Shown here: piece after piece, positions 6,352 through 41,961 of the stretch
Layout: each line of letters opens with the position of its first letter
Numbering within the stretch: position 1 is the first letter of the stretch
Source: Planctomycetota bacterium
Lineage (GTDB): Bacteria > Planctomycetota > B15-G4
Assembly (NCBI GenBank): GCA_029259745.1
Contig: JAJDEO010000063.1
Location: forward strand, 1-64,000
Direction: 5' to 3'
DNA: 64,000 nt
The notes under the pieces: generated by a model
Seen by the model: the letters and a program-made list of their open reading frames with translations, nothing else
What the model was told of the DNA's origin: nothing
The model's database searches: none
Made by a program: the position numbers and the translations under genes

Positions 6352-7335
6352 GTGAACCCAGCCATGAGAGCCGCGCTGATCGCCGTCTTGCTGGCCTGCG
6401 CCGTGAGCGCCTGCCAACGCGCCCGTGAGCCCGACCTCTGGCAGGCGTTCGACCTGCTCGTGCTGGCCGACGACGCCGCGGACCGGCCGACGCTCTTTCG
6501 CTGCCCCGTCGACGACGACTGGGAGACCTGGGGGCCGCCCGAGCCCGTACTCGCCGACCCGCGCTGGGCGGGCGCCGTGTCGCTGACCGCGGGGGCCGAC
6601 GGCGACGCGTACGTCGTCACGAACAGCGCCGTCTTCGCCGTCACGCCGAGCGGCGACGTCACGTCGGTCTGGAGCCACGAGCGTGCCGGTGACCTCGTGC
6701 ACCTCGCCTTCGACCCCGCCGGACGAAGAGCCTTCGTCACCGACCGCAGCGCGCGAGCGATCCACGTCGTCGACGTCTCAACAGGTGAGTGGCGCGACGA
6801 ACGCACCATCCGGAGCAACGCCCTCTCGACGCCGATCGCGACACGCGTGGTCGATGGCAACACGCTTGAGATCCTCGACCGCGAGTCCGACGCCCTGTTC
6901 TCCGTGACGCTCTGTCACGGCGACGCAGTCTCGAGCGGTCGCCGAGTCCCGCGCGACGCCGACCCGGTCGGGCTCGTGGGCACCGGCGCCGTGCTCGACG
7001 CGAACCCAGAGCACGCAGGCATCGCGACCGTCCGACGACTCACCGGGACGCTGCCCGGCTATCCCATCGACCTCTACTACGACCCCGAGTCCGGCGCGAT
7101 GTCACATCGACGGCGTGCTCTCGTCGGCGGCGGACTCTCGGCTCCCGGCGTCTCGCCCGTTGCGGGCACTGAGCTCGTCGCGCACGCTGTTGCCGTCCTC
7201 GGCACCTCCGCCGACGGCGCATGCCTCGTCTTCAGCGCCCGCATGACAGACGCCAGTCGCGAAGCCACCGTCACCCAGACGCTCGTCCCCTGCCCCGATC
7301 TCGGACGTCCGCTCGGCATCGCGCTCGTCGAGTGA
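6352..7335 (+). CDS. Lipoprotein, beta-propeller-like, paralogue A
   Basis: A 327-residue exported protein. Its N-terminus has a short hydrophobic stretch ending in a lipobox (AVSAC), so it should be lipid-anchored. The body has NHL/propeller-like strands such as AGDLVHLAFDPAGRRAFVTD, and is similar along its length to the gene at 8352 (shared DLLVL, EPEP/PEPV, HLAFD/HLAYD, TDRSA segments). GTG 6352 and ATG 6364 are both possible starts; ATG 6364 (MRAALIAVLL) gives a cleaner signal peptide. No enzymatic residues are recognised. It lies upstream of a shared-C-terminal-domain protein and its own paralogue, probably as one operon. Confidence 0.75.
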   Translation: MNPAMRAALIAVLLACAVSACQRAREPDLWQAFDLLVLADDAADRPTLFRCPVDDDWETWGPPEPVLADPRWAGAVSLTAGADGDAYVVTNSAVFAVTPSGDVTSVWSHERAGDLVHLAFDPAGRRAFVTDRSARAIHVVDVSTGEWRDERTIRSNALSTPIATRVVDGNTLEILDRESDALFSVTLCHGDAVSSGRRVPRDADPVGLVGTGAVLDANPEHAGIATVRRLTGTLPGYPIDLYYDPESGAMSHRRRALVGGGLSAPGVSPVAGTELVAHAVAVLGTSADGACLVFSARMTDASREATVTQTLVPCPDLGRPLGIALVE

Positions 7336-7412
7336 CGATGCGCGGCCCGCTGCGCCCCGAATCGCTGACCGATGCTATCGTCGCGCAGACACGCGAGGAG
7401 TTGGACAGTCCC

Positions 7413-8345
7413 ATGCACACACTCACACGAGCGCTCGTTGCCGGCATCATCATGTCGGCGCCCATGTTCGCCGGTGACCTCATCAACGGTGACGCCGAAG
7501 CCGGCACGCTCACACCGTGGGTGGCCGATCTCAGCGGCGCGTCATCCGGCAGCTCGCCGATCATCGGCGTGGTGCCCTCGCAGTTGCAGACAGGCCCAAC
7601 CGTCTTGCCCGCGTCGGGGAGCGCGTTCTTCACCTTTGGGGTGAATGCGACGGGCGCGAGCGGGAGCTTCGTCGAGATGTCGCAGACGCAGCCCGTCGAC
7701 GCGAGCGCCATGTCGGTTTGCCTCACGGGCAAGGTGCAAACCGAGCTCGACGATTTCGGCACGGCAACGATCGAGTTTCGCGACGTCGTGGGGACGTTGC
7801 TCTCGTCCGTTGCGCTCGACTTCCTGAACACACAAGCGACGTACGAGTGGACGGACTTCTCGGTGACGGCGTTCGTTCCCCCAGGTGCGCACGACTGCAC
7901 AGTCCGCCTCCGCGGCACGGTGCTTTCCGGCTCGTTCACGAACGTCTTCTGGGACGACCTCGACCTCGACACATCCACGTGGACCGACCTCGGCAACGGC
8001 CTCGCGGGCATCGGCGGCATGCCGCGCCTGACAGGCGCTGGGTGTCTGCTCCCCGACAGCGCCATGGAACTCCGGCTCGACAACGCGCTGCCCATGAGCC
8101 CGGCGTTCCTCGTCGTCGGCTTCTCCGAGATCAACGTGCCCTTCAAGGGCGGCACGCTCGTCCCGTCCGTCGACCTCGATCCCTTTGCGTTCCAAACCAG
8201 CGCCCTGGGTTCGCTCGTCATCCCGGCGACGTGGCCAACGGGCGTGCCATCGGGCTTGTCGTTCTTCATGCAGTTCTGGATTCTCGACGCCCCGCCACCG
8301 CCGACCTTCGCGGCGAGCAACGGCATCCGCGCAACGACACCCTGA
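7413..8345 (+). CDS. Secreted protein with lineage-specific C-terminal domain (copy 1)
   Basis: A 310-residue product starting at ATG 7413, with GAGGAG 12 nt upstream. An N-terminal signal peptide (LTRALVAGIIMSAPMFAG) is followed by a beta-rich domain resembling a carbohydrate-binding or choice-of-anchor fold (GDAEAGTLTPW, VRLRGTVLSGSFTNVFWDD). The last ~115 residues match the C-terminal regions of the proteins at 15855 and 28381: a P-x-L-x-G-x-G-like entry, LVVGFSEINVPFKGGTLVP, and an exact end in SNGIRATTP. The function is unknown; surface attachment is plausible. It sits between two paralogous lipoprotein genes, with only 6 bp to the second. Confidence 0.8.
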   Translation: MHTLTRALVAGIIMSAPMFAGDLINGDAEAGTLTPWVADLSGASSGSSPIIGVVPSQLQTGPTVLPASGSAFFTFGVNATGASGSFVEMSQTQPVDASAMSVCLTGKVQTELDDFGTATIEFRDVVGTLLSSVALDFLNTQATYEWTDFSVTAFVPPGAHDCTVRLRGTVLSGSFTNVFWDDLDLDTSTWTDLGNGLAGIGGMPRLTGAGCLLPDSAMELRLDNALPMSPAFLVVGFSEINVPFKGGTLVPSVDLDPFAFQTSALGSLVIPATWPTGVPSGLSFFMQFWILDAPPPPTFAASNGIRATTP

Positions 8346-8351
8346 CTGCCC

Positions 8352-9482
8352 GTGAGCCGCAACGCATCCCGCGCCAACGTCGTCCGTCACGTCGCGATCG
8401 CCCTCGCGCTGACGCTCGTGAGCGCGTGCGGGTCCTCGTCGGCCGCGACACCGCTTTGGAACGCCGACGACCTGCTCGTGCTCGACGCCGATGCCGGTGA
8501 CGTCGATGCCTATGGTGAGCCGCGCAGCGTCGTCTTCCGGTGTGCGGCGACGGGCGACGGCACGTGGGGCGAGCCCGAGCCGATCGTGCGCGACGGGCGT
8601 TGGCGCGATGCCGTTTCGATGGCTTACGGACCGGGGGACGCGCTGTACGTCGTCGAGTCGAAGGGCATGCATCGCGGTGCCGACAGCGCCTCGCGCGGAG
8701 CCGTCTTCCGCGTGGATCGTAACGGTGACGTCACGCTGGTCTGGACGCACGAGCAGGCGCGCCAGCCTGTGCACCTGGCCTACGACGCAGCAACCTCGCG
8801 CGTCTACATCACCGACCGTTCGGCCGACCCGCGCGGCCTCCGTCGCGCGACCGGCGCCGTGTTCGTCCTCGACATCGACGACGACGGCACGTGGCCGGAC
8901 GGACGCATCGTCACCGACGAGCGCTTCGTCACGCCGGCTTCCGTGCTTCCCGCCGGCGACACCGCGTTCCTCCTCGAAGCCGACGCGAACCCCGACGGAC
9001 ACCCCGGCACGCCCGGCATGCTCTTCGCGATCTCGGCAACCGGCGACGTCAGCGAAGTGTGGCGCTTCACGACGACGACGAGCCCGATCGCCTTCGCCGG
9101 CCCGTGGATCGTCGACGCGAACTTCGTGCGCGACGGCGTGCGCATCGGATCGGGCGCGCTGATCGGCACGGGCACGGCGCCGTGGTCGGACGCCAGCGTT
9201 GCGTGGAGCGAGGACGTCGCCGTGACGCACGCGCACTTCCCGCCGCGCACCTTCGTCGACCCGACGTCCGGCGTGGCCTTGCCCGACGACCGCCTGGCCT
9301 TCGCCGACGCGAACGCCGACCCGCGCAACTTCGGCTACGATCAGCTCGGTCGCGGCGTCTACGGCTCGGGCCGCGGCTGCGTCCTCGCGCTCGACCTGCA
9401 CGCCGACCCTCCGCGCGGCGAAGTGCTCGCCGCCTCGCAGCTCTTCGTCACGCCGATCGCCGTCGTCAGCGCGCGTGATTGA
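8352..9482 (+). CDS. Lipoprotein, beta-propeller-like, paralogue B
   Basis: A 376-residue protein with a GTG start 6 bp after the preceding gene. The signal peptide ends in a lipobox (LTLVSACGSS). It is a paralogue of 6352-7335 with the same order of segments: DLLVLDAD, WGEPEPIV, WRDAVSMAYG, VHLAYDAATSRVYITD. It is longer, with inserts such as DIDDDGTWPDG. It could be a propeller that binds a ligand or partner at the cell surface. Its last 17 bp overlap the convergent reductase gene. Nothing catalytic is recognised. Confidence 0.75.
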   Translation: MSRNASRANVVRHVAIALALTLVSACGSSSAATPLWNADDLLVLDADAGDVDAYGEPRSVVFRCAATGDGTWGEPEPIVRDGRWRDAVSMAYGPGDALYVVESKGMHRGADSASRGAVFRVDRNGDVTLVWTHEQARQPVHLAYDAATSRVYITDRSADPRGLRRATGAVFVLDIDDDGTWPDGRIVTDERFVTPASVLPAGDTAFLLEADANPDGHPGTPGMLFAISATGDVSEVWRFTTTTSPIAFAGPWIVDANFVRDGVRIGSGALIGTGTAPWSDASVAWSEDVAVTHAHFPPRTFVDPTSGVALPDDRLAFADANADPRNFGYDQLGRGVYGSGRGCVLALDLHADPPRGEVLAASQLFVTPIAVVSARD

Positions 9483-31171: not shown

Positions 31172-31558
31172 TCAGGCGCCGGTCGACGAGGGCGTCGCGC
31201 GGCGCAGATCGTCGAGGACGTCCGAACACCGCCGCACCGCGCGCGTGAAGTGAATCGCGAGGGTCCCGACCAGGATCAGCACGATCACTTGCCACCAGGA
31301 GGTCAGCCACGTGCGCCACCAGACCTGATCTTCGCGGGTCTCGAGGTAGATGATCAACGTGGTTTGCACGAGGCGCCAAACGAAGAACGCCACGGCCAGG
31401 AGCTGATACGTGCGCACACGCTTCTTCAGCGCCAGGAAGAGGCCGAGGTAGTCACCGCCTTCGAGACGCTTCTTGTCGGAATAACGGAGCTGGTGCCGCT
31501 CGGCCTCCGCGCGTGCACGCGCCTCGGCGGCGAGGGTCGGCTCGGTGCCGCTGGTCAC
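31172..31558 (-). CDS. Small membrane protein coupled to dsbD
   Basis: A 128-residue protein starting at GTG 31558, which overlaps the dsbD stop (GTGA). A polar, Ala/Glu/Arg-rich N-terminus leads into two transmembrane helices (YQLLAVAFFVWRLVQTTLIIYL and WWQVIVLILVGTLAIHF) separated by the Trp-rich loop DQVWWRTWLTSWW, and ends in a short charged tail. No family is recognised. The coupling suggests a role beside DsbD, or just polycistronic convenience. Confidence 0.65.
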   Translation of the reverse strand: MTSGTEPTLAAEARARAEAERHQLRYSDKKRLEGGDYLGLFLALKKRVRTYQLLAVAFFVWRLVQTTLIIYLETREDQVWWRTWLTSWWQVIVLILVGTLAIHFTRAVRRCSDVLDDLRRATPSSTGA

Positions 31559-34047
31559 TCGGCGACGAACCTCTCGAACGTCTCGACGGCGATCGCGTCG
31601 GGCTTCGGCATCGACATGCGGCGCACGATCTCGAAGTCGTCGTCGCCCTTCGGCTTGACGAGCGCGTAGAGCGGCAGCGTCACGGTGCTGAAGCGCGCGC
31701 TCATGAGATCCTTGTTGGCCTCGTCGCCCGCGCGGTGCTCGTCCGTGCGGCGATCGGTGTAGAGCTTCGCGAAGACGACGTCCTTGCTCAGCGCCGCAAA
31801 CTCCGGCAGCTCGAAGACGCTCTTCTCGACGATGCGGCAGTTCACGCACGTCACGCCCGTGAAGTCGACGAATACGGGCTTGCCCGTCGCGCGCGATTCG
31901 GCCAAGGCCGCGTCGAAGTCGCCGATCCAAGGCACGTTGCTCTTCTGCTTCTGGTCGTCCGCGACGCCATAGTCGCTCGGCGGCAGATACGACTCGAGCG
32001 CTCCGCCGAGGCTCTTGCCCGTCATGCCCGTGGACAGGAACAGGACGAGCGCCGTGACGAGCAGGGCCGAGACTCCGCGACCACCCTTGAAGGACAGCTT
32101 CGGCGCCTCGTAGTCGTGCGGCAGCTTGTACGTGCCGTAGAGATACAGCGCCAGCGCGGCCATGAGCATGATCGCCGCGAGCAGCATCGTCGGGCGCGGC
32201 ATGAGCTCGAGGCCCCAGACGATGTCGGCGTTCGAGAAGAACTTCAGCGCCGCGACGAGCTCGATGAAGCCCATCGCTGCTTTCACCGTCAGCATCCACC
32301 CGCCGGCACTCGGCAAGCTCGACAGCGCGTTCGGGAACATGGCGAGCAGCACGAACGGCAGCGCGAACATCGTCGAGAAGGAAAGCATCCCGATGACGAT
32401 CAGCAGCGGCGAGTCGGCCGTCGAGAAGCCCGCGAGCAGCGTGCCGACGACAGGCGCCGTGCACGTGAACGCCGTGATCGTGAAGACGAAGCCCATCGCC
32501 ATGACGGGCATGTAGCCCGAGTCGGCCGAGGAGTCGCCCTTGCCCTGCGCCATGTTCGTGAGGAACGCGGGCGGCTGCAGGTCGTAGAAGCCGAGCAGCG
32601 ACAGACCGAAGAAGACGAACAGCACGCCCACGGCGATGTTCACCCAAGGATTCGTCGCGAAACTCGCCGCGGCGCCCGCCGACACGAGCGCGAGCAGCAG
32701 CCCGAAGCCCGTGTACGTACCGATGATTCCACCGCCGTAAGCCAGCGCGTACTTCGTGGCGCCCTTGCCGCCGGTGGCCTCGGCGCGCTTCGTGAAGAAG
32801 GACACCGTGATCGGGATCATCGGGAAGACGCAGGGCGTCAGCAGCGCGAAGAGCGCCGCGAGCATCGAGAGCCCGATGACGGAGATGAGGTTCCCCTCGC
32901 CGAGCGCGCTCAGGAGGCGCGACTCGATGTCGTCGCTTGGGCCGGACGCCGAGCTCGCGTTCGTCTCCGTCTCGGACGACTCCGTGGCGTCGACGTCGTC
33001 GGAGCTTGTGGGCGGCTCGGCCGAACCGCGAGCGTTGACGGCGAGCTGGTCGCGGCTTGGCTCGCCACCGGCCGTCACGTTCAGCGTGAACATCTCTTCG
33101 ACAGGCGGGTAGCAGACTTCGTCGCACGCCTGGAACTCGACGGTGACCTCGAGCGGGACGTCCCCGGAAACGTCGGCGGCGAGCGTGATCGGCACCGTGA
33201 TGTCGAACTCGCCCGACCAGACCTGATACGTCTCCTCGCCGAACTGGCCGTACTCGACCGTGAGGTCGTGATCGATGTCCTTCGGATAGTTGGCAGCGCC
33301 GATCGTGACACCATCGACGGGCGACGTCACCGACACGCGCGTACGAATCGGGTCGAGCATCGGCCCGTTGTCACTGTCGGACGTGTAGACGTGATACGGC
33401 GACTCGATGTCGAAGGCCACGCGCAACGTGGACGTCGCGCCGGGGGGCACCGTCGCGAGCGACGATGTCGTCACGGTGACGGGCCCGTCCGAGATCTCGC
33501 GCGAGACCGTGTTGCCGAGCGCCACGTCGTCGCCACCCGTCGCCGGGATCACGGTGAGCTTGAAGGCGATGGGCTCGTCGTACTGCGGCGGCAGGCACGA
33601 GGCGTCGTCGCAGGCCTGACTGTTGACGAGCAGCGCGCCAGACACCTCGCCGGCGGCGCTGGCCGCGATGGCCACGTCGACCTCGACGGTGAAGACACCG
33701 CCCATGACGAGGAAGCGTTCGACCTCCCCCGTGCCGTAGTCGACGACGAGCTCTTCGGCGATGTCGGGGAAGCGCGTCTCGACGAGCGTGAATGCCTCGT
33801 CGTCCTCCGCGATCGACACGGCCGTGCGGATGATGAAGTCACCCGGCGAGTTGGGCGCGTAGAGGTGGTAGGGCTTCTCGATCTCGAAGCGCAGCGGCAG
33901 GGTCACGGTCGACCCGGCGGCCACCGGCGTGCTGGGTGCCTCGACCGAGATCGAGACCGGGTTGTCCTGGGCGCTGGCCGGCGTCGGCAGCAACGCACAG
34001 AGCGCAAGGACAGCGAGCCACGCAACGCGGGCGGTCGGACGGGTCAT
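31555..34047 (-). CDS. dsbD: Thiol:disulfide interchange protein DsbD, with duplicated N-terminal redox domain
   Basis: Carries electrons from cytosolic thioredoxin across the inner membrane to periplasmic reductants. The 830 residues start at ATG 34047 with a signal peptide (VAWLAVLALCALLPTPASAQ). Two DsbD-alpha-like domains follow, each with a Cys pair: CDDASCLPPQ, then CDEVCYPPVEE. E. coli DsbD has one. The central eight-helix domain begins LLTPCVFPMIPITVSFF. The C-terminal thioredoxin-like domain has VDFTGVTCVNCRIVEKSVF, a CxxC site. It is followed by a coupled small membrane gene. A natural client would be the TlpA-like protein at 40873-41961. Confidence 0.93.
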   Translation of the reverse strand: MTRPTARVAWLAVLALCALLPTPASAQDNPVSISVEAPSTPVAAGSTVTLPLRFEIEKPYHLYAPNSPGDFIIRTAVSIAEDDEAFTLVETRFPDIAEELVVDYGTGEVERFLVMGGVFTVEVDVAIAASAAGEVSGALLVNSQACDDASCLPPQYDEPIAFKLTVIPATGGDDVALGNTVSREISDGPVTVTTSSLATVPPGATSTLRVAFDIESPYHVYTSDSDNGPMLDPIRTRVSVTSPVDGVTIGAANYPKDIDHDLTVEYGQFGEETYQVWSGEFDITVPITLAADVSGDVPLEVTVEFQACDEVCYPPVEEMFTLNVTAGGEPSRDQLAVNARGSAEPPTSSDDVDATESSETETNASSASGPSDDIESRLLSALGEGNLISVIGLSMLAALFALLTPCVFPMIPITVSFFTKRAEATGGKGATKYALAYGGGIIGTYTGFGLLLALVSAGAAASFATNPWVNIAVGVLFVFFGLSLLGFYDLQPPAFLTNMAQGKGDSSADSGYMPVMAMGFVFTITAFTCTAPVVGTLLAGFSTADSPLLIVIGMLSFSTMFALPFVLLAMFPNALSSLPSAGGWMLTVKAAMGFIELVAALKFFSNADIVWGLELMPRPTMLLAAIMLMAALALYLYGTYKLPHDYEAPKLSFKGGRGVSALLVTALVLFLSTGMTGKSLGGALESYLPPSDYGVADDQKQKSNVPWIGDFDAALAESRATGKPVFVDFTGVTCVNCRIVEKSVFELPEFAALSKDVVFAKLYTDRRTDEHRAGDEANKDLMSARFSTVTLPLYALVKPKGDDDFEIVRRMSMPKPDAIAVETFERFVAE

Positions 34048-34258
34048 GGAGACTTCTCGGGCAGGCACTGTCGACGGGCAAGTGGATACGGATGCGGGCC
34101 ACGGCCGTTGGCGCACGACGCGGGTCCCTCCTCAGATCGATGCCAGAGGAGTCTGTATGTCTCAGCGAACAACCGATCATGCACGATCGGCGCTGATGCA
34201 GCAGCCCGCAGCGAGGTCATTCCCACCCGTGGCAGCACTGATCCACGGGAGCTTCTGG

Positions 34259-36697: not shown

Positions 36698-37927
36698 TCA
36701 CGCCGGCTTGCCGGCGAGGCGCGCGGCCTCGGCCGCCTCGGGGAGGGCTGCGAGCAGGGCGTCGATCTCGCGCTCCGACGTGTAGGCCGCGATGCTGGCA
36801 CGCACGGTCGGGCCGCCGAGGAGACGCTCGAGGAGTGGTTCGGCGCAGTGGAATCCCGCGCGCACCGCGATGCCGGACATGTCGAGCACCATCGCCGCGA
36901 CGTGTGGGTCGCCGTCGAGAACGTCGATCGACACGGCGCCGCTGCGGCTCGCCGCGTCGGGTGGGCCGATGACGCGCACACCCTCGATCGCGGCGAGGCC
37001 TGCGAGCAGGCGCTCGAGCAGCGCGATCTCGTGGGCGCGGATGTTGGCCGCCCCGAGCTCCTCGATCAGATCCAGCGCCGGGACGAACCCGATCGCCTGC
37101 GTGATCGGCGGCGTGCCAGCCTCGAAGCGATGCGGGACGTCGGCCCAGCTCGGACCTTCTTCCCAGCTCACCCGCGCGACCATCTCCCCGCCGAACGTCA
37201 CGGGCTCCATCTCGGCGAGCAGCTCGGCACGCCCGACGAGGACGCCGAGACCCGTCGGCCCGAAAGACTTATGCGCGGACGTTACAAGGAAGTCCGATGC
37301 CTGAAGCGAGTTATCTACGGGAAGGTGGGCGACCGCCTGCGTGGCATCGATCAGGACCGGAACGCCGCGCGCGTGGGCCGCATCCGCGATCGCGGCCGTG
37401 TCGACGATGGTCCCGACGGCATTCGAGACCCGCGTCGTGGCCACGAAGGCCGTGTTTGCAGGCAGCTCAAAGGATTCCAAGAGACCATCATCCGACACCG
37501 GAGCCACCGTCAACGTCGCACCTGTGCGTCGACAGACCTCCATCCACGGGACGAGATTGCTGTGGTGCTCGAGCGCCGTGACGACGATCCGATCGCCGAG
37601 ACCGATGCGCGGCTCGAGCCACCCGCGCGCGACGAGGTTCACGGCCTCCGTCGCGTTGCGCGTGAAGACGACCTCCCCGGCCTGGGCACCGAGAAACCGC
37701 GCGACCCGCTGGCGTGCGCCCTCGAACGCCTCGGTCGCCGCGCGGGCGCGTCGGTGCGTGGCGCGGTGGACGTTGGCGTTGTCGCGCTCGGCGAAGCGTG
37801 TCATGGCGTCGAGCACGGCCTGCGGGCGGTGCGTCGTGGCGGCGTTGTCGAGCGCGGCCTCGTGGGGCTCGGATGCCACGAGCGCCGGGAAACGAGCCCG
37901 CAAGGCCTCGACGTCGTAGCCCGTCAT
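36698..37927 (-). CDS. SufS/CsdA-type cysteine desulfurase
   Basis: A PLP enzyme that takes sulfur from cysteine for Fe-S clusters or other thiolation; 409 residues. ALDNAATTHRP at the N-terminus, FTRNATEAVNLVARGW, VVTALEHHSNLVPW, and TSAHKSFGPTGLGVL with the PLP lysine mark the class-V aminotransferase family, group II. The active-site cysteine is C361 in AGFHCAEPLLERL. No suf scaffold genes are adjacent, so it may be a stand-alone desulfurase. If the Sec call at 41200 is right, a desulfurase of this family could also supply selenium, but nothing here proves that. Confidence 0.92.
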   Translation of the reverse strand: MTGYDVEALRARFPALVASEPHEAALDNAATTHRPQAVLDAMTRFAERDNANVHRATHRRARAATEAFEGARQRVARFLGAQAGEVVFTRNATEAVNLVARGWLEPRIGLGDRIVVTALEHHSNLVPWMEVCRRTGATLTVAPVSDDGLLESFELPANTAFVATTRVSNAVGTIVDTAAIADAAHARGVPVLIDATQAVAHLPVDNSLQASDFLVTSAHKSFGPTGLGVLVGRAELLAEMEPVTFGGEMVARVSWEEGPSWADVPHRFEAGTPPITQAIGFVPALDLIEELGAANIRAHEIALLERLLAGLAAIEGVRVIGPPDAASRSGAVSIDVLDGDPHVAAMVLDMSGIAVRAGFHCAEPLLERLLGGPTVRASIAAYTSEREIDALLAALPEAAEAARLAGKPA

Positions 37928-40872: not shown

Positions 40873-41961
40873 CTAATCCAGCTCGGAGAGCTTCTCTTCG
40901 AGCAGCTCGAGCGAGCCGCCTCGGACGACGTTGCCTTCCGGGTCGATCAGCGCAAGCGTCGGGAACGCTTGGATGCCGAAGGTCTTGATCGTCTCGCCCG
41001 TGGCGTCGAGCAGGACGGGGAAGGGGAGATCGCGCCCGCCCCAGGCGGTCTTCGTGATGTCGACGAGCTTGGCATCGAGCTCTTCGAATGTCTTCGCGGT
41101 TCCGTCGTGGAACGCGACGATCTCGAAGTGGTCACGCTTGTCGGCGTTGGCTTCGTAGAAGTCGATCATGTGCGGCAAACTGCCGCGCGTGCAGGGGCCT
41201 CACCAGAAGCCCCAGAACTCGATGAGCAACCACTTGCCCCGGAAGTCGCCGAGTGCTGGCTTCGTGTTCCCGCCGGTGTTGCGGGCGTCGGTGACGGTCC
41301 AAGCCGGCGGCGCCTTGCCGTAGTGCTGCGCAAGGACGGTCGGTGTCATCGCGATGACGCCGCCATCGTTGTGCGCCTCGCGCTCGTCGAGCGAAATGCT
41401 CTCGAACTTGATCTGCAGATCGGACGAGTAGAGGAAGAGTTCGTAGTCACCCGTCGGACCGGCGAAACCGATCTCACCGTTGTCGCCGACCTCGAGGCGA
41501 TAGACGTCGGCGCTCGGCACGTCCCTCGAAACGGACGCGGAGAACGAGGGCTTTGTCGCGAGCCCCTCCCACGTGAGCGTTGCCGTCCACTGGATCGACT
41601 TGCGCAGCGTGACTTCGGCAGGGCGCCGTTCATCGTCGTCACTCGCGGGCGCACCCACTGCAATGCCGGTGAAGGCGCCGTTGGCCGAGCGAGCGAGGAC
41701 GCCGACTTCGCGTCCGGCGAAGTAAGACGGAACGTCGAGCGCGAACGTGCCGTCGTCGCCGGTGACGACGGGGTTCTGCGGCGTCATCGACGTCGGTGAG
41801 GACGTCCATGATCGTGCGACGGTGGCGCCCTTGATGGGACGTCCCGCCGAGTCGATCACGATGCCTGTGAGAGTGACGGGCGCGGCGGGCTCCTGCCCGA
41901 ACGCACCGGGTGAAAACCCGACGGTCGTGGCGAGGGCGGCGGCGAGGACGAGGGGTCTCAT
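40873..41961 (-). CDS. Candidate selenoprotein: exported TlpA/thioredoxin-fold protein with in-frame UGA at the first active-site Cys
   Basis: Read through one TGA (41200-41202), this frame gives 362 residues from ATG 41961. A signal peptide (LAAALATTVGFSPGAFGQ) is followed by a carboxypeptidase-regulatory-like beta domain (VTLTGIVIDSAGRPIKGATV), then a TlpA-type thioredoxin domain (~215-362). There GKWLLIEFWGFW is followed by UGA, then GPCTRGSLPHMIDFYE. Residue 254 is where TlpA proteins carry the first Cys of CxxC, and C257 is intact. Downstream the fold continues without frameshift (FPVLLDATGETIKTFG, the cis-Pro QAFPTLALIDPEG) to a TAG stop. A hairpin fitting a bacterial SECIS follows the UGA. 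I infer a selenocysteine oxidoreductase. The alternative is a nonsense mutation or base error at a Cys codon (TGC/TGT to TGA), which would make it a pseudogene. Confidence 0.75.
41172..41186 (-). promoter_or_regulatory. Putative bacterial SECIS hairpin downstream of the UGA
   Basis: On the mRNA strand, after UGA (41200-41202) there are 13 bases and then GCGGCA (41181-41186), loop GUU (41178-41180) and UGCCGC (41172-41177): a perfect 6-bp stem. The loop starts 19 nt after the UGA, with G in its first position. As I recall, bacterial SECIS elements need a short apical loop with G in the first two positions about 16-37 nt from the UGA. The stem is short, and GC-rich DNA makes chance hairpins common. 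Confidence 0.5.

Follow-up and report, generated by a model that had tools for sequence, protein, structure and literature searches.

Selenoproteins that combine a UxxC motif with a TlpA-like thioredoxin fold have been predicted before. A thiol-disulfide isomerase-like selenoprotein of this kind (cd02966, TlpA-like) was first listed from the Sargasso Sea in 2005 (PMC1088965) and was listed again in Table 1 of PMC13188914, which also contains Prx-like thiol:disulfide oxidoreductases and Redoxin-family UxxC selenoproteins, assigned in that table by domain only. In cultured Planctomycetes, a complete selenocysteine (Sec) machinery and several putative selenoproteins were described in 2016 (PMC4807772); the main text of that study names fdhA and fmdB, and the family described here may be in its S9 Table. 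Here we describe a gene in a 64,000-nucleotide stretch of planctomycetotal DNA (the whole stretch analysed, hereafter the window). The gene appears broken by an in-frame TGA codon, and automatic annotation would label it truncated or a pseudogene. From comparative sequence analysis, however, the gene is almost certainly intact, with the TGA being read as selenocysteine at the active site of its product.

The predicted protein shares with the Sargasso Sea entry the TlpA-like thioredoxin fold, Sec as the first residue of UxxC, and its status as a computational prediction. The two entries for that protein (PMC1088965 and PMC13188914), compared by description, make no mention of an N-terminal beta region or of this Planctomycetota family. 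With the Prx-like and Redoxin-family entries it has in common the PF00578/PF08534 match and the UxxC motif, and with the cultured Planctomycetes the presence, at the level of the phylum, of Sec machinery and putative selenoproteins. By profile and by fold it is closest to 4nmu, 1su9 and 1st9, which places it near ResA, TlpA and DsbE (CcmG), with which it shares the FWxxWCxPC motif and the cis-Pro. Unlike these proteins, it has Sec for the first Cys and carries some 180 additional residues at its N-terminus. Its score against the NCBIfam ResA subfamily NF002854 (59.2 bits) does not reach the cut-off of 170 bits, and therefore it is not a ResA orthologue. Given the UxxC TlpA-like selenoproteins listed in 2005 and the Sec use reported from Planctomycetes in 2016, this kind of selenoprotein is already known. 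An architecture with beta domains, numerous Sec/Cys exchanges, Sec and Cys copies in tandem and the occurrence of Sec in further TlpA clades of the class all appear, supplementary tables aside, to be missing from the published main-text descriptions.

Gene structure and predicted product

The features of the gene, all on the minus strand, are as follows.

40873-41961, minus strand: whole predicted selenoprotein gene, ATG at 41961 to TAG at 40873, 362 residues with Sec at 254
41896-41961, minus strand: probable Sec-type signal peptide (MRPLVLAAALATTVGFSPGAFG), judged by eye; the structure model has a tail of low confidence at residues 1-20
41347-41877, minus strand: N-terminal beta region, residues 29-205, first part CarboxypepD_reg-like (Pfam PF13620; AlphaFold strands 29-205)
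40885-41319, minus strand: TlpA/ResA-like thioredoxin-fold domain, residues 215-359 (Pfam AhpC-TSA/Redoxin; ResA best by profile and fold)
41200-41202, minus strand: in-frame TGA, predicted selenocysteine codon for residue 254, which opens the UGPC redox motif
41191-41193, minus strand: TGC codon of the predicted resolving cysteine, C257 (sequence and alignment)
41172-41186, minus strand: candidate bacterial SECIS upper stem-loop, GCGGCA-GUU-UGCCGC (covariation, slide control, AGT bias and the model of PMC13188914)

As read from the sequence, the frame runs through 362 codons before the TAG, its sole internal TGA is codon 254, and a GGAGG lies about 8 nt upstream of the start ATG, at a normal distance. 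The TGA stands in the context FWGFW-TGA-GPC, which is the active site of the TlpA-like domain. It is followed in the same frame by the second active-site Cys (C257) and by the cis-Pro loop FPT (333-335). The first-pass annotation had described a frame broken solely by this TGA, with the UGA at the first redox position, C257 kept and no frame shift, and reading the frame and its codons bore this out. One TlpA-like domain was also said to span both sides of the TGA. Indeed, when the TGA was read through, Pfam matches to AhpC-TSA (46.5 bits), Redoxin and Thioredoxin_8 all crossed it. In an AlphaFold model (pLDDT 88.7), beta structure at residues 29-205 is followed by a thioredoxin fold, and residue 254 is located between a strand (244-250) and a helix (255-271), as in thioredoxins. 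A 17-sequence alignment shows no variation at F249, W250, position 254 or P334 and very little at W253 and C257. The thioredoxin fold, the W-[CU]-x-x-C motif and the cis-Pro of a TlpA/ResA-like protein were thus all found.

The N-terminal region had been called carboxypeptidase-regulatory-like. The match to PF13620 is below the cut-off of 32.3 bits in the protein itself (26.1 bits) and above it (37.0 bits) in a homologue from the Planctomycetota genome OFTM9 (G002; record L061). The protein is probably exported.

Selenocysteine machinery and homologues

The source genome is a draft of 5.88 Mb that is 91% complete, and the window is part of its contig C60. On the first-pass reading, the genome should hold selA, selB, selD and tRNA-Sec, and all four are present: tRNA-Sec (71 bits; ARAGORN type SeC, anticodon TCA), selA (424 bits, sharing a contig with tRNA-Sec), selB (332 bits, including the winged helix and beta-barrel specific to SelB) and selD (303 bits). 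A Sec-containing formate dehydrogenase was not found in the source genome, which has only uninterrupted relatives scoring below the cut-off. In record L020 (400-2550), selD appears by eye to be fused in one long frame behind an FAD/NAD-dependent dehydrogenase-like domain, and this SelD has Cys (CAGCGAK), not Sec.

The homologue in G002, a genome of the same family as the source genome and of another genus, is full-length, 47% identical, and has TGA at the same codon. A profile built from these two sequences was run on 392 genomes of the phylum. It matched in 28 genomes, of which 19, including the source genome, contain a form with exactly one in-frame TGA; translation placed this TGA at the first redox position in all members examined. 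A Sec set of 20 sequences was compiled from the gene and 19 homologues, namely 18 sequences from other genomes of the phylum search and one from the Phycisphaerae record L065; the set excludes G135 (L160), whose match is short and covers TlpA alone. The TGA is kept throughout this set, and other homologues have Cys at the aligned redox position. The comparison envisaged in the first-pass annotation therefore yielded TGA or Cys codons at the site, with the sequence beyond it conserved.

Bacterial selenoprotein families are known to exchange Sec and Cys at redox positions (PMC1794560). Here, a maximum-likelihood tree was built from 58 members, some of which, though labelled Cys, have lost the redox motif entirely. 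On this tree the Sec/Cys labels require about 7 changes against 16 in shuffles (0 of 500 shuffles as low), and at least three of these changes are forced by well-supported branches. The gene selA was over the cut-off in 17 of the 19 genomes with the UGA form and in none of the seven near-complete genomes with only Cys forms, all of which belong to family f26. The two genomes with the UGA form in which selA was not over the cut-off, G002 (84% complete) and G177 (77%), both have selB over the cut-off. Neither selA nor a clear tRNA-Sec was found in G002, the nearest relative, which we ascribe to the incompleteness of this genome. G031 and G212 have selA and no UGA form among their matches, which is compatible with the Sec reading.

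Sec and Cys paralogues of this family lie side by side at L168 and L176 (G233 C170) and also in L065 (about 7073-9020), where the match of the Sec copy is confined to the C-terminal half of the profile. Other paralogues (L169, L155, L170, L173, L157, L171, L174 and L175) have no CxxC motif or have CNTS/CPTS instead, suggesting non-catalytic or single-Cys relatives. Most of these paralogues sit in genomes that also have a Sec form.

The SECIS hairpin and alternative readings

The hairpin 3′ of the UGA, which is as the first-pass annotation had it, has six pairs (GCGGCA/UGCCGC) and a GUU loop, with 19 nt from UGA to loop and a folding energy of -10.6 to -11.3 kcal/mol. It agrees with every listed condition of the bSECIS model in PMC13188914: a loop of 3-9 nt, a stem of 4-16 bp, G then G/U first in the loop, 16-37 nt from the UGA, and an energy of -7.5 or lower. 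In single-sequence folding it was no more stable than shuffled sequence (z -0.05). As this was not significant, single-sequence stability was dropped as evidence, and comparison across homologues was used instead.

The loop GU is part of a serine codon, and the 19 Sec members that have a serine at this position all encode it as AGT. Elsewhere in the Sec-member genes AGT accounts for 12 of 293 serine codons, and it is used by two of the eight Cys homologues with serine at the loop position (Fisher’s exact test against 19/19: p = 9e-5). One Sec member (L167) has glycine at this position, coded GGT, so that the RNA retains its GU although the amino acid differs. In the 20-sequence alignment, 88% of cells in stem columns 17-22 and 26-31 pair, with nine double changes, and the covariation score is 0.224 versus 0.084 in shuffles (0 of 500) and at most 0.112 in slid controls, the codon and pair counts alike coming from related sequences that are not independent events. 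A SECIS structure is thus conserved across the homologues, and these data support its selection at the RNA level. For the SECIS-like hairpin proposed earlier, the fit to the model, the AGT bias and the covariation count in favour, and single-sequence stability does not. The AGT codon is a simple and strong marker of the SECIS in this family. A remnant SECIS may persist in two Cys homologues, L067 and L080, whose loop codon is still AGT.

The window comes from a draft assembly and single nonsense changes are generally common, so the gene might be taken for a pseudogene or the TGA for a sequencing error in a sense codon. However, the same TGA is present in 19 separately assembled homologues, many of them far diverged. 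Compared with the G002 protein, the part before the TGA is 39% identical and the part after it 65%, the opposite of the pattern from a dead 3′ end. This conservation indicates that the TGA is not a matter of chance. The Sec machinery is present in the genome, and the AGT codon and the stem go together with the TGA. We therefore regard decay or error as highly improbable, and the conservation of the TGA appears to refute it in practice.

Termination at the TGA would instead give two proteins, a 253-residue beta-domain N-terminal product and a fragment started internally at TTG 41178, for which a mechanical ORF (41178-40873) does exist. However, neither the strand of the active site nor its motif would be part of this fragment, the break would fall within the active site of the thioredoxin domain, and the Cys homologues are one continuous protein; two separate products are just as improbable as decay. 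In some bacteria TGA is read as Trp, and a suppressor or an altered code might place Trp or another residue at codon 254. Yet TGA is the commonest stop among the neighbouring ORFs checked, ending 9 of 11, and is therefore a real stop elsewhere in the genome; just one W-TGA-GPC site, that of this gene, was found in the source genome; and homologues have Cys, not Trp, at the site. Such decoding is the least probable of these alternatives. By contrast, the Sec machinery, the conserved UGA, the Sec/Cys exchange, the selection on the SECIS and the thioredoxin geometry together support the selenoprotein reading. Very probably the product is an exported selenoprotein that acts as a TlpA/ResA-like thiol oxidoreductase, its Sec254 being inserted via SelB and the hairpin.

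Proposed mechanism and other TlpA clades with UGA

In the selenoprotein reading, SelA would make Sec-tRNA(Sec) from the selenophosphate of SelD. SelB carrying Sec-tRNA(Sec) would bind the hairpin just 3′ of the UGA, and selenocysteine would be inserted at residue 254. The signal peptide would carry the product across the inner membrane, and the protein, once extracytoplasmic, would serve as a thiol oxidoreductase of the TlpA/ResA-like kind, presumably in the reductase direction. From thioredoxin chemistry, the Sec254 selenolate would be the attacking nucleophile and the Cys257 thiol the resolving residue. The N-terminal beta domains probably position the TlpA domain or its partner. A possible electron donor is encoded about 7 kb away:

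31555-34116, minus strand: DsbD-like transmembrane electron carrier, conjectural partner (Pfam DsbD_N in two stretches, DsbD_TM and Thioredoxin_7)

The DsbD with two N-terminal domains that the first-pass annotation placed at 31555 thus exists. Its two DsbD_N domains and C-terminal thioredoxin domain make it a possible donor to the selenoprotein, which we offer as a conjecture.

No conserved neighbours were found among the Sec-form loci except for a cysteine-desulfurase-like gene in two sister genomes; antisense matches at these loci were rejected as mirror frames of the selenoprotein gene. In the window, a cysteine-desulfurase-like gene (36698-37927, minus strand) is located 3 kb from the selenoprotein gene, and L195 and L196 have a similar gene close to their Sec form. 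Cysteine-desulfurase-like enzymes can act on selenocysteine, and this proximity may be due to chance.

A search for the W-TGA-GPC pattern gave clear TlpA matches in most members of the class. Some matches in other genomes (e.g. L200, L201 and L212) were outside TlpA frames and were discarded as chance. In several other TlpA clades of the same class, UGA is at the first redox position in L043, L044, L045, L046, L049 and L052, and also in L036, L026, L035 and the W-TGA-GPC loci L204-L223. Many of these loci have different hairpins, with GU or GGUC in the loops (e.g. GAGCGGTCGCTC).

Tentatively, and with somewhat less than even confidence, we propose that the gene belongs to an undescribed, phylum-wide Planctomycetota family of exported beta-domain/TlpA selenoproteins with repeated Sec/Cys exchange, alongside several other Sec-using TlpA clades in the class. 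The 19 Sec homologues and the many Cys homologues, which in some genomes lie in tandem, offer a good natural comparison for studying the timing and causes of Sec/Cys swaps. If the phylum-wide reading is true, much of the extracytoplasmic thiol chemistry of this lineage would depend on selenium.
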